Shown here one piece after another: positions 255 to 61,747 of a stretch of 64,000 nucleotides of DNA. The first letter of the stretch is position 1, and the number at the start of each line of letters is the position of its first letter. A model generated the notes under the pieces. That model was not told where the DNA came from, ran no database searches, and was given only the letters and a program-made list of their open reading frames with translations. The stretch is from a virus. The stretch lies in IMG/VR virus record IMGVR_UViG_3300042507_003741, positions 1-64,000 of that record. One strand, 5' to 3'. Both the position numbers and the translations under genes were made by a program.

Positions 255-611
255 TTAGGTCGGCCCCGCCCCGCCTACGTCAGTGACCCTAGCGGCGCTA
301 GGGCGTTCGACGGGAGCAGGGCCGACTTGTTGAGTTCGCTCCAGCAGCCCGCGAGCCACAGCGACCGCCGCCATGTCATCGTCGGCGTGGCATCCGTTCT
401 CCTGGCGGTCGATCTCGGAATACTCCGCGACTGCCTCGCACAGCCGCATTATCGCCTCTCGCTCCTCGTCGGTGAGCGTGGGCTGCGGAATCCAACTCCT
501 GCGGTCCAGTTCTCTCGCCGCGTCCAGCAAAACGTCACTGTAATCGGCACCGCAAATGTTGAGCGTGTCGCTCATGTCTCGCAGCCGTTCGGCCAGTTCG
601 TCCTGTGTCAT
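255..611 (-). CDS. Small LTDEERE-family phage protein
   Basis: 118 residues with an AAAGGA ribosome binding site upstream of ATG. The second half carries the module PTLTDEEREAI ... GLLERT, which recurs in the proteins at 683-904, 59997-60269, 60308-60541 and 60795-61523. The module looks like a short two-helix unit beginning with the conserved TDEER turn. The N-terminal part (MTQDELAERLRDMSDTLN) is specific to this copy. I do not recognise a biochemical function. The gene sits just upstream of the duplicated membrane protein, the same order as at 60.6-61.5 kb. Confidence 0.7.
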   Translation of the reverse strand: MTQDELAERLRDMSDTLNICGADYSDVLLDAARELDRRSWIPQPTLTDEEREAIMRLCEAVAEYSEIDRQENGCHADDDMAAVAVARGLLERTQQVGPAPVERPSAARVTDVGGAGPT

Positions 612-26981: not shown

Positions 26982-27961
26982 CACAGTCTCCCAAGAACGT
27001 GAGCCGGAAATGGAAGTTCAACAACCTCGCCGTGCGATTCCGGCAGCCACCAGTCGAGGTCTTCGCGCAATCGAAGTTCAGCAAGGGCGGCATCCATGAG
27101 CCGCCGGCCCTCTGCGACCACAGCAGAAGGGAGAGTCACGACCTGACAGTCGTGAGGCAGAGACGTTGAGACGACAATGAATCGCAGCGGCTGCGGGTCC
27201 AGCCCCATCGCTTCCATGCCGCACTGATACCACGCATCCTGGAGGTGGTAGCGGAAGTCCATGACTGACCGCCAGAAGTTCGCCAGGATGTCCGCCTCGC
27301 GGGTGGTCTTGAGGTCAATTGCCAGACCGTCGCGGGTGATCGCGTCGAACCTGCACTTGAGTTGGTGGCCTTCTGGCGAGCGCCAATACGCGCCCACTTC
27401 ATGCTCGGAGATTGTGGACAGGAGTTCACGGGATGCTGGGTTGTTCTTGATCGCCGACACTTCCGCGACGATCTGGGCTCGCTCCTTCGGGGATACGACT
27501 GTTGCCCCCTCTGGGGCCTCGTTTTTGGCCCATTTCTCCGCTTCTTTGCCAACCAGCCCGGTGGCTGTTAGGGTTGCTGGCGGAGGGACGACCAGCGACT
27601 CAAGGAAGTCATCGCCCAGTTCCAGCCACGAATGCAGCAGCGTGCCATGATCGGTGGCGCTGCTGGAGAACGGCGGCAGGGTCTTGGCGATGTACCGCTG
27701 GTGGTACAGGACAGGCGAGTCAAGGAGCGTTTTGATTCGGCTGCACGACCTGTGCGTTTCATTGGCGTGATACTCGGCGTTTGCCTCTCCTCGCCGAATC
27801 ACGGCCTCTACATGTGGCGAGTACGCTTCCGATTCTGTGGGCGTACATGCTGCTTGTAGGTGCTCCGTTTGAGGGGTTCGTACTTTGCCGGATGCGCAGC
27901 CGAGTTGAAAGTCGGCCGGGCTGTCCGATAAATCACCCCTCACATCAAGTGAGGCAACCAT
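26981..27961 (-). CDS. RecE-like/DUF3799 PD-(D/E)XK exonuclease
   Basis: Up to 326 residues. From about residue 60 the family features begin: CSRIKTLLDSPVLYHQRYI, HGTLLHSWLELGDD, and the catalytic strand LKCRFDAITRDGLAIDLKTT (D...D-x-K). The downstream HLQDAWYQCGM resembles the Tyr-rich RecB-type motif. The first about 55 residues have no ribosome binding site at the ATG at 27961 and may not be translated; a GTG near residue 54 is an alternative. Confidence 0.75.
   Translation of the reverse strand: MVASLDVRGDLSDSPADFQLGCASGKVRTPQTEHLQAACTPTESEAYSPHVEAVIRRGEANAEYHANETHRSCSRIKTLLDSPVLYHQRYIAKTLPPFSSSATDHGTLLHSWLELGDDFLESLVVPPPATLTATGLVGKEAEKWAKNEAPEGATVVSPKERAQIVAEVSAIKNNPASRELLSTISEHEVGAYWRSPEGHQLKCRFDAITRDGLAIDLKTTREADILANFWRSVMDFRYHLQDAWYQCGMEAMGLDPQPLRFIVVSTSLPHDCQVVTLPSAVVAEGRRLMDAALAELRLREDLDWWLPESHGEVVELPFPAHVLGRL
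27938..27954. promoter_or_regulatory. Inverted repeat upstream of integrase gene
   Basis: Perfect CCTCAC-ATCAA-GTGAGG, ending five bases before the tyrosine recombinase ATG and overlapping its GAGG ribosome-binding stretch. It could be an operator or a translational hairpin that masks the binding site. TCCGATAAATC lies just upstream. Confidence 0.45.
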
Positions 27962-28784
27962 GTCCAATAACCTCCCTGTCCTGGTGGAGCGATACCTCCG
28001 CTCCCGATCCGTCAGTCCTGGCTACGCCCGAAATGTCCGTGCCGTCTGCTTGGCCTGTCGCACCATGTCCGTCGATGCAATCAACACGTATCTGCAAAAA
28101 CGAATCGTCGAGGTGGCTTCGATTACCGCAGCGACCGAGCGAGCGATTCTCGTTGGCATCTGGAAGTGGGCCTACGAAACCGAAGTAGTGGATCGACTGC
28201 CACGCGGAATAGTCAAGATCAAAATCGCCCGGCGTCCGACTCGGGCGTGGACTATAGAACAGTGCTGTACGGCCGTCAAGGGGACTTTCGCCCTCGCCGA
28301 AGAAGTGCGTCGGAAGCGGGTGACAGTCGGCCTTTTTCTGCGGTGCTGGATGCTGCTGGGGTACGAAACGGGCGCGAGGCACGGGGACTTGTGGGAGATG
28401 AGGCAAGAAGACTTCGACCTGGATGCCGGCACCGTCCGCTGGTCGCAGCACAAGACCGGCGAGCCGCACGTCAAGATCATGAGCCGGCCCTGCCTGCTGG
28501 CCGTCCAGGAGATGCTGGAGCGGTCGCCAGACGGTCGCGTGCTGGGTTGGGTGATGTCAAAGAAATCGGGTCATCGGCGGATGCGGAAGTACCTGCGTGA
28601 CATGAAGTACGCGGGATCCTCCAAGTGGCTACGCCGCAGCGGGGCCACCCACATTGAGATGGAGCATCCTGGCAAGGGGCGGCTGCATCTTGGTCACAAG
28701 ACGCCTGGACTGGCCGAGCGGTGCTATATCGACTGGTCGCAGGTGCGCAGGGACATCCCGTGCGTGCCGTCGCTACTCAAATAG
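27960..28784 (+). CDS. int: Tyrosine recombinase (phage integrase family)
   Basis: 274 residues. Catalytic set: R140 in ETGARHGDL, K165 in HKTGEP, R225/R226 in KWLRRSGAT, H246 in LGHKT, and Y256 in ERCYID. The usual His of the HxxR box is replaced by Lys (K223). The N-terminus (about 1-90) is a small SAM-like core-binding domain. No IntI-type extra helix is evident. It could integrate or resolve the phage genome. Its 3-prime end overlaps the convergent virion gene by 12 bases. Confidence 0.85.
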   Translation: MSNNLPVLVERYLRSRSVSPGYARNVRAVCLACRTMSVDAINTYLQKRIVEVASITAATERAILVGIWKWAYETEVVDRLPRGIVKIKIARRPTRAWTIEQCCTAVKGTFALAEEVRRKRVTVGLFLRCWMLLGYETGARHGDLWEMRQEDFDLDAGTVRWSQHKTGEPHVKIMSRPCLLAVQEMLERSPDGRVLGWVMSKKSGHRRMRKYLRDMKYAGSSKWLRRSGATHIEMEHPGKGRLHLGHKTPGLAERCYIDWSQVRRDIPCVPSLLK

Positions 28785-58871: not shown

Positions 58872-58972
58872 TCGTCGTACGGGTAACCGTCCTCCGGGTC
58901 TTCGGTGTACGGGCCGGGCTCCGCGTCCTCATGGAACCAGGGGCGTACGTCGGGGTAGGTGGCTTGTGTCAC
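58868..58972 (-). CDS. 34-aa acidic peptide
   Basis: GTG start overlapping the upstream stop (GTGA) and stop overlapping the next ATG; residues include TYPDVRPWFHEDAEPGPYTE. Coupling on both sides supports a real gene. Function unknown. Confidence 0.5.
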   Translation of the reverse strand: MTQATYPDVRPWFHEDAEPGPYTEDPEDGYPYDE

Positions 58973-59295
58973 TTTTCGACAGTTTCCGTGCCATCGCTCG
59001 GCGGGGCCGGGAGCGGCATCCAGTTAGTGATCCCGAATGAATCCACATCGTCATCGTCCATGCCGCAGAACCGCCACATCACCCCGTCATGCGATGCCAT
59101 CTGAGCAAGGCGAATGTCTTTCGGAAACGCTCTTGTGACAGCCAAGACGGCGGCATGCACTTCCGGCAGCCGCTCCGTCACCGGAATCCAGCGCGGCACT
59201 TGCTCCTCCAACTCTTCGATCTCGGCGTGCATCCTCCGCTCCTCTGGCGTGCAGTCGCAGTTCATGGGCTTCTGGTCGCAGATCGGGCAATACAT
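58969..59295 (-). CDS. Zinc-knuckle plus DUF551 protein
   Basis: 108 residues. N-terminal CPICDQKPMNCDC metal site, a short coiled coil, then DUF551: PRWIPVTERLPEVHAAVLAV and ITNWMPLPAPP. GAGGAG precedes ATG. It lies just after the last attC-like site of the cassette array. Confidence 0.7.
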   Translation of the reverse strand: MYCPICDQKPMNCDCTPEERRMHAEIEELEEQVPRWIPVTERLPEVHAAVLAVTRAFPKDIRLAQMASHDGVMWRFCGMDDDDVDSFGITNWMPLPAPPSDGTETVEK

Positions 59296-59315: not shown

Positions 59316-59365
59316 ACAGAACCAAGCGATGCAGCGGACGAGACGCTGATCGCCAGCGTTCTCAC
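59316..59365 (-). repeat. attC-like site 1
   Basis: Minus-strand boxes TGAGAAC (start, contains the TGA of the upstream ORF) and GTTCTGT (end). Arms GCGATCAGCG and CGCTGCATCGC fold around CTCGTC. The 5-prime box is the reverse complement of site 2's 3-prime GTTCTCA. Downstream no matching ACAGAAC is seen, so the array ends here. Confidence 0.8.
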
Positions 59366-59592
59366 TCATCGACACTAACTGCGGCGCCTTCAACGGTCGG
59401 CTCATTGAGTTCATAGGCCGGAACATCAGCCTCCACCCACCGAATCTGTTTGTCGCCGTCGTTTCCTTCCATGCACTCATACGCAATGTTGGCGGCTTCG
59501 CGACCAGCGTTCTGCCAGCCGTTTGCGGAATAATTGCCATCCTCCGACACGCACACCGCTATGCGAACCCGAATCGTTTTTGCTTCGCTCAT
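59362..59592 (-). CDS. Cassette ORF C, 76 aa
   Basis: MSEAKTIRVRIAVCVSEDGN ..., with CAGGAG before ATG. Small alpha/beta protein (IRVRIAVCVSED, IAYECMEGNDGDKQIRWVEA). Stop TGA is inside the attC-like 5-prime box. Function unknown. Confidence 0.7.
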   Translation of the reverse strand: MSEAKTIRVRIAVCVSEDGNYSANGWQNAGREAANIAYECMEGNDGDKQIRWVEADVPAYELNEPTVEGAAVSVDE

Positions 59593-59610
59593 TGCCTGTC
59601 TCCTGTTCTT

Positions 59611-59660
59611 GTGAGAACCACGCGATGCAGCGGACGAGCCGCTGATCGCTGGCGTTATGC
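59611..59660 (-). repeat. attC-like site 2
   Basis: Minus-strand boxes GCATAAC (contains the upstream TAA stop) and GTTCTCA. The stem CAGCGG-CTCGT-CCGCTG continues with GCGAT/ATCGC, leaving one unpaired C, reminiscent of extrahelical bases in attC. Its 3-prime half (24 bases from GTCCGCTG) is identical to site 4. Confidence 0.85.
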
Positions 59661-59924
59661 GGTCGGGTACTTCTTCTGAAACTGCTCGTACGTCATCGCG
59701 TCCCCTTGGCCGCCGACGCCTGTTGCGATGAATGACCCGCGCGATACCCGGATGGATTTCACGCCCTTCAACTTCTTCCGGCCGGTGAACTCGCGGTATC
59801 TGATTGCTGACCAGCCCTTGCCTTGGCAGTGGATGCAGACCACAGCCTCCCCTTCGCCTTCGCACATGCCGCGATACAGGCCCGCCCCATGGCATTCGTC
59901 GCACTCACACTTGATGTCTGGCAT
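59655..59924 (-). CDS. Cassette ORF B: DnaJ-like CxxCxGxG zinc protein, 89 aa
   Basis: Two CxxC-x-G-x-G repeats: CDECHGAGLYRG and CIHCQGKGW, as in the DnaJ zinc domain, here alone without a J-domain. AGGAGG precedes ATG. The C-terminus (MTYEQFQKKYPTA) is helical. The TAA stop lies in the attC-like box. Possibly a small metal-binding protein. Confidence 0.75.
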   Translation of the reverse strand: MPDIKCECDECHGAGLYRGMCEGEGEAVVCIHCQGKGWSAIRYREFTGRKKLKGVKSIRVSRGSFIATGVGGQGDAMTYEQFQKKYPTA

Positions 59925-59941
59925 TTGTCCTCCTGAGTCAA

Positions 59942-59999
59942 CCGCATAACCAGCGGATGAAGCGGACGGCGGGGCCGCCGCTGATCCTGCGTGTTCTCA
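59942..59999 (-). repeat. attC-like site 3
   Basis: Minus-strand boxes TGAGAAC (contains the upstream TGA) and GTTATGC. The stem is extended: CAGCGGCGG and its complement around CCCG, with arms AGGAT/ATCC. TGAGAAC is the reverse complement of site 4's GTTCTCA. Confidence 0.8.
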
Positions 60000-60269
60000 G
60001 CCCAGCCGTTGCAGTATCGATTCAACAGCCACCCTATGCGGCTCATACATGATCGTCGGAAGCATCCGACGGAGCGCCTCCCGCTCCGCGTCGGTGAGCG
60101 TGGGCTGCGGCTCGCGGTAGAGCGACTGCACTGCCATGTCGCCCGCAGCAACCATCTCTGCGTCAGGCCGGTGCAGAAAAAAGTCCGCGTGGTCAGTCCA
60201 CTCAACCATCCACGCCACCGGCTGAGAACCACGCGATGCAGCGGACATATCATCTACCTCGTCTGCCAT
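59997..60269 (-). CDS. Cassette ORF A: VAW-type/LTDAERE protein, 90 aa
   Basis: N-terminus MADEVDDMSAASRGSQ is encoded inside attC-like site 4; then VAWMVEWTDHADFFLHRPDA and a C-terminal module PTLTDAEREALRRMLP. VAW...LY...P motif recurs in 60795-61523. The RBS and ATG lie in the preceding cassette. Function unknown. Confidence 0.7.
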   Translation of the reverse strand: MADEVDDMSAASRGSQPVAWMVEWTDHADFFLHRPDAEMVAAGDMAVQSLYREPQPTLTDAEREALRRMLPTIMYEPHRVAVESILQRLG

Positions 60270-60311
60270 GGTTGCTCCTGTGTTCGATGCCGCTGATCGC
60301 TGGCGTTCTAA
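60223..60311 (-). repeat. attC-like site 4 with gene start in its loop
   Basis: Boxes TTAGAAC (contains the upstream TAG) and GTTCTCA. Between CAGCGG and CCGCTG the loop is lengthened by about 40 bases holding CAGGAGCAACCATGG, the ribosome binding site and start of ORF A. Length 89, still within the usual attC range. Confidence 0.8.
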
Positions 60312-60541
60312 TTGGTCCGCTCAAGCAGGCCGTCGATCACGGCGGCGACCTCCACACTGTCGGCAAACCGCCCCGCGAAGTAGTCTTCTCGCACTCGCCG
60401 CAGCACCTTCCTCAGCGACTCCCGCTCCTCGTCGGTGGGCCGCAGGCGTGCGACCTCCGCCTCTAACTGCTGCACTCGCTCCATCGCCTGGATTAGTGCA
60501 TCCAGATCGTCAGGCATCATCGGCGGCACAAGATCACTCAT
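60308..60541 (-). CDS. LTDEERE-family protein, 77 aa, upstream of site 4
   Basis: MSDLVPPMMPDDLDALIQAM then coiled coil (VQQLEAEVARLR) and the RPTDEERESLRKVL ... DGLLERTN module. AAAGGAG before ATG. The upstream boundary shows a weak resemblance to an attC 3-prime half (ATTGCGTGATTTCA), so this may be a decayed fourth cassette. Confidence 0.7.
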   Translation of the reverse strand: MSDLVPPMMPDDLDALIQAMERVQQLEAEVARLRPTDEERESLRKVLRRVREDYFAGRFADSVEVAAVIDGLLERTN

Positions 60542-60571
60542 GTCTGTCTCCTTTACGTTGAAATCACGCAA

Positions 60572-60802
60572 TCACTTCCTGTCGATCACCTTGCGTAGCG
60601 TGTCGGCATCCCGTCGCCGCTCGTCCCCCAGTTGCTCAAGCCTCTCGCGCAGAATGGAGTTCACGCCGCGCAGCCGCCATATCTCGTCTACCAGCGGATC
60701 GGCGCCGGTAGCCCAATGCAGCAGCCACGCCGATCCAATGAACGACGCCGGGATGAGTACGGCCAAGGAGAACCACGCATACCAAGGCATTTCGTTAGGC
60801 AT
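60572..60802 (-). CDS. Small membrane-anchored protein, paralogue B
   Basis: 76 residues, the complete copy of the gene at the window's left edge. MPNEMPWYAWFSLAVLIPAS and a charged coiled tail ending TLRKVIDRK. AAGGAG is absent, but the start overlaps the upstream gene. Function unknown. Confidence 0.75.
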   Translation of the reverse strand: MPNEMPWYAWFSLAVLIPASFIGSAWLLHWATGADPLVDEIWRLRGVNSILRERLEQLGDERRRDADTLRKVIDRK

Positions 60803-61523
60803 TTGTTGTCCTCTCCAGAAGGCCGTCCAGCACCGCCGCTATCTCGTCGCACGCCACATCGCCAACGTCGGCGTAGGCGTCGCGTACTTCACGCAGGACG
60901 AATCGCTCCGCGTCGGTCAGCGTGAACGGCGTCAGCGAGCAGTGAAGCGTAGTGCGGCCAACAACGTGGGGGCAGGTCTGCGGGGTGCGGTAGAGCGGGA
61001 CGACCTCCCCGTCGTTTTCGTCCGCTGCCGCGTCGGCGTGTTCGCGGTGCAGCGAAACCATCTGCCATTCGTCGGAGTGTGCCAGCCACGCCACCGGATC
61101 CTGTGTATTGTGCCCCCGCCCACCCGCCGCCTCGCCGGTGCCGGGCCGCGTAACGTCTAGGGGCCGCCCCTCGCCGCTTCCATCGCTGGAGGCCGGTGGC
61201 TGCGCTATCGCAGGCGAGGAGCCATCTGTCTCCACGCATGGTGGAGCAGTCTGATTGCCGGTGCCCAACACGGGTCGCGTCACGGGTTTATCAGTCCCGC
61301 CGCTGCCGCGTCCTTCAGACGCATGAACGCCTGTTGGCAACTGGACTCTCGCCGCCGGCGCGGCGTCATGTTCGGTTCGCTCCCGCTCGCGGAGCATGGC
61401 GTCGGCCCAGCGGTAGGCAGCCGTGAGTAGGTGTTCCCACTGCAATGCAGTTGGGTACTGATTGGCCTCGTCTGACAGCAGCCCGGTCAGGGCCGCAGCG
61501 GCGAAGTGGTCACGGTCTGTCAT
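60795..61523 (-). CDS. VAW-type/LTDAER-family protein, 242 aa
   Basis: Helical N-terminus (residues 1-55), a disordered Ser/Gly/Pro linker (60-145), then PVAWLAHSDEWQMVSLHREH with VVPLYRTPQ, and finally FTLTDAERFVLREVRDAYAD ... GLLERT. So it joins two modules found separately in smaller proteins nearby. Function unknown. Confidence 0.65.
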   Translation of the reverse strand: MTDRDHFAAAALTGLLSDEANQYPTALQWEHLLTAAYRWADAMLRERERTEHDAAPAARVQLPTGVHASEGRGSGGTDKPVTRPVLGTGNQTAPPCVETDGSSPAIAQPPASSDGSGEGRPLDVTRPGTGEAAGGRGHNTQDPVAWLAHSDEWQMVSLHREHADAAADENDGEVVPLYRTPQTCPHVVGRTTLHCSLTPFTLTDAERFVLREVRDAYADVGDVACDEIAAVLDGLLERTTNA

Positions 61524-61747
61524 GTCTTGTCCTCCTCGTTGGCCCACAGCATTGCGGCCTTCTCGTCCCAGCAGTCAGCCCGTCCCATGTCGAACCAGTG
61601 CGGGAAATGTCGCAGCACAGCCCGCGCCTCTTGGCGAACCTCCGTGCGGATCCCCTTGATGCCGCCCTCCACATAGACGTTGGAGAGCCGCACCAGGAAG
61701 TCGCGGGCACGGAGGACCGCTAGCGTTCGTTCACACGGGAGGGTCAT
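61520..61747 (-). CDS. BPSL0761-like small protein
   Basis: 75 residues starting MTLPCERTLAVLRARDFLVR and containing IRTEVRQEARAVLRHFPHWF. The ERT-AVL-RDFL and R-x-EAR-LLRHFP pattern is that of a short bacterial and phage family of unknown function (BPSL0761-like, from memory). Confidence 0.65.
   Translation of the reverse strand: MTLPCERTLAVLRARDFLVRLSNVYVEGGIKGIRTEVRQEARAVLRHFPHWFDMGRADCWDEKAAMLWANEEDKT

Follow-up and report, generated by a model that had tools for sequence, protein, structure and literature searches.

The block at positions 59316-60311 of this phage DNA consists of four attC-type sites bounding three one-ORF cassettes, with every ORF on the - strand, and each cassette is made up of one short ORF and one attC-type hairpin. 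Comparison with other viral sequences supports the view that these are integron-type cassettes, exchanged in the phage genome by site-specific recombination. We consider it probable that they form an array without an integrase of its own, moved at the R' box by a host integron integrase (IntI) acting in trans. Exchange of this kind is familiar from bacteria, phages being counted as rare carriers. The DNA analyzed (referred to below as the window) is a stretch of 64,000 nt from IMG/VR virus record IMGVR_UViG_3300042507_003741, the whole of which extends to 81.6 kb. Its phage nature is evident from genes for portal, head, and virion-structural proteins and for a helicase; no relative of the portal was found in named phages.

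The features of the block are collected in Table I. On the + strand, each site has the layout NNNNAAC-CANGCGATGCAGCGGAC-loop-CGCTGATCGCNNGC-GTTNNNN, and the block as a whole is flanked by a DUF551 gene (58969-59295) on the left and by the gene at 60308-60571 on the right. The latter is taken to belong to the phage backbone because there is no matching outer box, and inspection by eye revealed no partner for the outer left box in the flanking sequence. A preliminary description of this DNA had read four sites alternating with single small ORFs on one strand, with stop codons held within the AAC boxes. All of these elements are in the sequence, the stops being TAG, TGA, TAA, and TGA; what that description overlooked is that the ORFs are reversed with respect to attC and that a start codon lies within site 4. 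The body of the cassette 3 ORF has PVAW and TLTDEER-like segments in common with neighboring phage genes.

Table I. Cassette array, flanking genes, and recombinase gene, in window coordinates
Feature	Position	Strand	Remarks
attC-type site 1	59316..59364	+	R'' ACAGAAC, R' GTTCTCA; covariance model R1, 66.8 bits (R1 training member)
attC-type site 2	59612..59660	+	R'' TGAGAAC, R' GTTATGC; R1, 67.7 bits (training member)
attC-type site 3	59944..59999	+	R'' GCATAAC, R' GTTCTCA; GATGAAGCGG stem variant; 56 bits (training member)
attC-type site 4, long-loop class	60223..60311	+	R'' TGAGAAC, R' GTTCTAA; 57.9 bits, outside R1 training
Cassette 1, 296 nt, from between G and TT of one box to between G and TT of the next	59359..59654	-	attC 5' of ORF; cut points inferred from R'-box breakpoints
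Cassette 1 ORF, 76 aa, no function assigned	59362..59592	-	Stop codon overlapping site 1 box
Cassette 2, 339 nt	59655..59993	-	GTTATGC/GCATAAC boxes complementary across cassette
Cassette 2 ORF, 89 aa, cysteine-rich CxxCxGxG protein	59655..59924	-	Pfam matches all sub-threshold
Cassette 3, 312 nt	59994..60305	-	GTTCTCA/TGAGAAC boxes complementary across cassette
Cassette 3 ORF, 90 aa	59997..60269	-	Start within site 4; attC-encoded leader MADEVDDMSAASRGS
Putative ribosome-binding site AGGAGC plus ATG	60267..60279	-	In site 4 loop, from sequence
Left flank, DUF551 gene (Pfam PF04448)	58969..59295	-	Adjoins site 1; kept in L018
Right flank gene	60308..60571	-	Terminates at site 4 box
Tyrosine recombinase (PF00589) without IntI insertion	27960..28784	+	Probable phage integrase; candidate enzyme only if a phage recombinase moves the cassettes

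The outer four bases of each site are unpaired within the site and pair exactly with those of the neighboring site across each cassette. All three pairs are complementary in this way, as the preliminary description had claimed, and the AAC/GTT outer boxes thus have the complementarity to the neighboring cassette end that is expected of attC. The pattern is far from confined to this genome. The core pattern of sites 1 and 2, for which 100 shuffles of the window give an expectation of 0, matches 106 viral-contig stretches, and further patterns in viral contigs account for at least 119 stretches of the long-loop class and at least 61 of the GATGAAGCGG class. A detector built on half-sites, with mismatches allowed, was run on IMG/VR viral loci and returned 578 sites in 225 loci, co-oriented in every locus; because some loci overlap in contig, sites and intervals are counted here as distinct sequences, not as independent events. 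The same half-site detector found 0 sites in five Markov copies of the phage genome. Complementarity of the boxes at 7 of 7 positions occurs in 220 of 288 distinct inter-site intervals, where shuffling of the boxes among cassettes gives a mean of 39.1 and a maximum of 57, and complementary boxes within a single site occur in 67 of 467. Chance is excluded as the origin of the sites and of their matched boxes. A REP-like repeat was also considered and is ruled out by box exchange together with the breakpoints described below: boxes have been exchanged across related genomes, which a REP-like element of the kind envisaged in the preliminary description would not show. The boxes themselves are atypical. 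The commonest phage boxes, GTTCTCA and GTTCTGT, fit GTTRRRY poorly beyond the GTT, and the sites do not follow the GTTRRRY/RYYYAAC consensus outside its core; this counts against the explanation that we favor.

Structure is conserved where sequence is not, as is characteristic of attC, with inner stems, a spacer, and an extrahelical base. The stem of 24 short sites has been preserved through compensatory changes (CAGCGG/CCGCTG, CTGCGG/CCGCAG, AAGCGG/CCGCTT), with the bulged G always in one position; the covariation score is 0.171 compared with 0.053 after shuffling, and five pairs show two-sided change. As DNA, site 2 forms a hairpin with z = -3.5/-3.6 and one bulged base. As RNA, the fold of site 4 is no more stable than its shuffles (z -0.9), and we therefore make no claim of fold-based translational control. 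A covariance model, R1, was built from the phage short sites; having been trained on phage sites, it gives scores for sites 1-3 that are not independent. When R1 was applied to bacteria, 44 of 294 Planctomycetota genomes, 37 of 297 Acidobacteriota, and 15 of 299 Pseudomonadota were positive, and in two of the Planctomycetota (G191 and G142) the R1 sites adjoin full-length intI genes (419-493 bits). These results do not establish a planctomycete host. Assignment of such a host from attC resemblance was dropped because the other two phyla are also positive. A 366-aa phage protein had no match in 199 Planctomycetota, which has no bearing on the host either way.

The movement of cassettes can be followed by comparing viral genomes. 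The same three cassettes occur in the order c1-c2-c3 in one locus (L026) and c2-c3-c1 in another (L033), each ORF keeping its attC, and single cassettes have moved between phages with both ends at GTT. Where homology between two contigs breaks at a site in both, the break falls at the R' GTT box in 44 of 75 cases and at the R'' AAC box in 2. In L018, which is 98.6-98.7% identical to this phage at the DNA level over long stretches up to site 1, homology ends just past the GTT box of site 1 and is followed by different sequence; the block is therefore not kept identically in all relatives, whereas an identical block in all of them was what the preliminary description had named as telling against its reading. 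Within the array, the segment 59460-59657 (198 nt, ending at the site 2 box) is 94% identical in a 54-kb record (G014). At the DNA level this record resembles the phage nowhere else, except that the hairpin itself aligns a second time, and eight proteins of this phage, mostly structural, have no match in it. These comparisons show that phages differ by the gain, loss, and rearrangement of entire cassettes, to all appearances through crossover in one R box, between G and TT, and the shared units and breakpoints agree in making one ORF plus one attC the unit that moves. A cut between G and TT had been proposed from box complementarity. The cut is supported, and complementarity alone cannot say which box is cut; the polarity evidence given below places the crossover at the GTT box of the + strand, which corresponds to the AAC end in the orientation used earlier.

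Could the sites instead be repeats shuffled by homologous recombination or phage annealing proteins, with no site-specific recombination at all? Sites of one class have almost the same arms, some of the breakpoints fall in loops whose flanking arms are shared, and homologous exchange would keep box complementarity that already exists. Such exchange is, however, unable to give rise to complementary boxes, and breakpoints at one box between sites of different classes (e.g. L026/L033 and L033/L070) are not what it would lead one to expect. We regard it as improbable. Even more so is the notion of a dead bacterial-integron fragment, acquired once by a phage with no continuing exchange. Arrays without intI do occur in phages (Qi et al. 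2023, PMC9892861), and the 1301-bp block has no match among 50,697 named phages. Cassette turnover in relatives nevertheless contradicts such a fragment, which is also hard to reconcile with 225 viral loci and reordered cassettes, with a cassette segment common to unrelated phages and turnover beside site 1, or with a site family that, one distant relative aside, was not found in bacterial genomes.

About nine breakpoints (e.g. L033/L058) are of another kind and lie within attC at the loop, such that the ORF is kept while the loop and its leader peptide are changed. A plain crossover at R' does not explain them.

In the textbook cassette, attC follows the ORF at its 3' end and shares its polarity. 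The phage cassettes depart from this arrangement. The bulged base, alignment with intI-adjacent arrays, and the breakpoints all point to attC polarity on the + strand, with the ORFs on the - strand; in bacterial intI-adjacent arrays ORFs are mostly co-oriented with attC. ORF length alone was set aside as a guide to orientation, being noisy in phage cassettes because ORFs begin inside attC, and a codon score trained on the phage of this record was used in its place. By this measure the better ORF is antisense to attC in 276 of 287 phage intervals and in 258 of the 260 that gave a clear result; attC thus occupies the 5' end of the gene to which it belongs. ORFs stop within ~10 bases of the next box in about 200 of 256 cassettes, and in 92 of the 256 the ORF starts inside the upstream attC (84 of 156 long-loop sites). 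The same reading frame at the box (...GGT T) is used by 83 of these 92 ORFs, and the loop classes encode different leaders (among them MTKEVDEMSAASRG, MSDDNTQDGAEPSPASAG, MPKDDATLSAASVG, and MTQDADGSAPMLG). Ribosome-binding sites and codon scores suggest that the attC-internal starts are used. In many cassettes the attC loop would then supply both ribosome-binding site and start codon, as well as a short leader whose reading frame continues across the box, and a cassette carrying its attC at the 5' end could be translated wherever it lands.

Representative cassette proteins belong mostly to phage families without known function. The cargo to which names can be given comprises DUF551, a Dam methylase, a C5 methylase, a Mom-like protein, PAPS-reductase-like proteins, and a phosphoesterase. 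Of the 112 cassette proteins that were clustered, 32 fall in one group, and the TLTDEER...LLERT segment of this group is also found in backbone genes of this phage, outside the array. As a repeated module, it occurs in small genes at window positions 255-611, 683-904, 59997-60571, and 60795-61547. A stretch of gene 255-611 is 91% identical to DNA within the array of another locus (L015), indicating that backbone and cassette genes interchange.

The preliminary description had suggested looking for an IntI gene in the full phage; the IntI model TIGR02249 gave no match in this record, nor any above noise in the 36 phage records searched, which include it and may be incomplete. With four sites in 1 kb and no intI gene, the block has the composition of a CALIN (at least two close attC sites without intI) and not of a complete integron. 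Tyrosine recombinases are nonetheless common in these phages, and the cassettes might be moved by a phage-encoded enzyme, most simply the common tyrosine recombinase, as a phage-owned, IntI-independent system. PF00589 is present in 27 of 36 site-bearing or related records, with two matches in this phage, and such an origin would fit R boxes unlike GTTRRRY and a site family nearly private to viruses. Several points argue against it. The phage recombinases lack the IntI-specific insertion, and their catalytic arginines are mostly 81-91 residues apart compared with 133-134 in bacterial IntI, outlying values being ambiguous motif picks. The enzymes have diverged strongly between phages whereas the sites are nearly identical, the opposite of what enzyme-site co-evolution would produce, and nine records, one of them of 122 kb, have no PF00589 match, although these may be fragments. 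Furthermore, temperate phages are expected to carry integrase genes in any case. We therefore judge a phage recombinase to be unlikely. The second tyrosine recombinase of this phage, at 66866-67780 (+) of the whole record (G000), is itself diverged, and is kin to that of another record (G026) and not to the enzyme encoded at 27960-28784.

IntI was not found in the 36 records, and their recombinases have a short arginine spacing and vary between phages whose sites hardly differ. The best available inference is therefore a trans-acting IntI of the host, in which both the enzyme and the host are putative. Its substrate would be the folded bottom strand, here the ORF-sense strand, presented while the phage DNA is single-stranded, and phages in a common host could in this manner swap cassettes, DNA-modification genes included. 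What speaks against a host IntI is that cellular genomes hardly contain the site family. The site patterns gave 14 matches in 84,980 cellular genomes, of which only one (L140) is attC-like, a distant relative, and no host with both IntI and these cassettes was found as a result. The preliminary description had offered capture from a host integron or mobilization by the phage. Integron-type cassettes exchanged in a phage are borne out; simple host capture is not supported, because the family is abundant in viral contigs with 14 cellular hits and the module of the 32-protein group lies outside the array. A more radical proposal is that of a private phage cassette economy, based on a phage-specific attC family and a phage or unknown recombinase, with attC supplying translation start and leader, and with genes that are captured as in-frame fusions and pass from one unrelated phage to another independently of any bacterial integron. 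We mention it as a speculation of doubtful standing.

Clusters of attC sites in phages are already known. Qi et al. 2023 identified 17 CALINs in a set of 10,705 phage genomes and showed in an assay that IntI1 can use phage attC sites (PMC9892861). Those CALINs resemble the present array in having attC and cassettes in phages without intI and in their methyltransferase cargo. They differ in that the present sites form a single family found in 225 viral loci, whose cassettes pass between unrelated phages, and in that neither reversed ORFs nor start codons in attC are described in the passages of that paper that were compared (PMC9892861). The sedentary chromosomal integrons of the Planctomycetota G191 and G142 share the stem GATGCAGCGGAC...CCGCTGATC, the bulged G, the AAC/GTT boxes, and box complementarity; unlike the phage arrays, they include intI, have boxes close to GTTRRRY and long hairpin tips, and their ORFs mostly run in the direction of attC. 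For a recombination site supplying a translation start, the nearest analogue is ORF-11 of attI1, which gives translation support to cassettes that have no start region of their own (reviewed in PMC8876359). Here, too, a recombination site holds a ribosome-binding site and start codon, and a short ORF runs across the crossover point. In that system a single attI, fixed in place, acts on the first cassette through translational coupling (PMC8876359), whereas in the phage cassettes the start would lie in attC, travel with the ORF, and yield a fused N terminus. In the literature searched, mostly open-access journal papers, a phage-wide site family, reversed 5'-attC cassettes, and attC start codons are not described, and the phage-wide, reversed, start-codon-bearing form of attC appears to be new.

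With a site family that is frequent in viral contigs and almost missing from the bacterial genomes searched, and with a cassette segment common to phages without other detectable DNA similarity, phages would have a site-specific route for trading accessory genes. The genes so traded would include Dam, C5, and Mom-like DNA-modification genes, which could counter restriction. A reversed attC with a built-in start codon also bears on the open question of how attC joins new genes: since the leader must stay in frame, each joining of attC and gene leaves a readable record.

Several features of the window outside the array are also recorded here. Positions 1-237 are duplicated at 60573-60809 (237 nt, 97% identity, 60 kb apart), the repeat carrying a small membrane-protein-like gene, and positions 260-325 on the - strand, in a region of small genes, match the Rfam DUF3800-VIII RNA with 59 bits. 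The segment 11959-13494 (+) encodes a DUF2201 metallopeptidase plus a VWA-like protein. Between 2557 and 10593 (+), CGCTGCGGAGTCTG occurs in 10 exact copies, all on the + strand, where 0.08 would be expected by chance. Most copies lie tens of bases 5' of a start codon and some are followed by an inverted repeat; these repeats are perhaps a phage promoter or processing signal.
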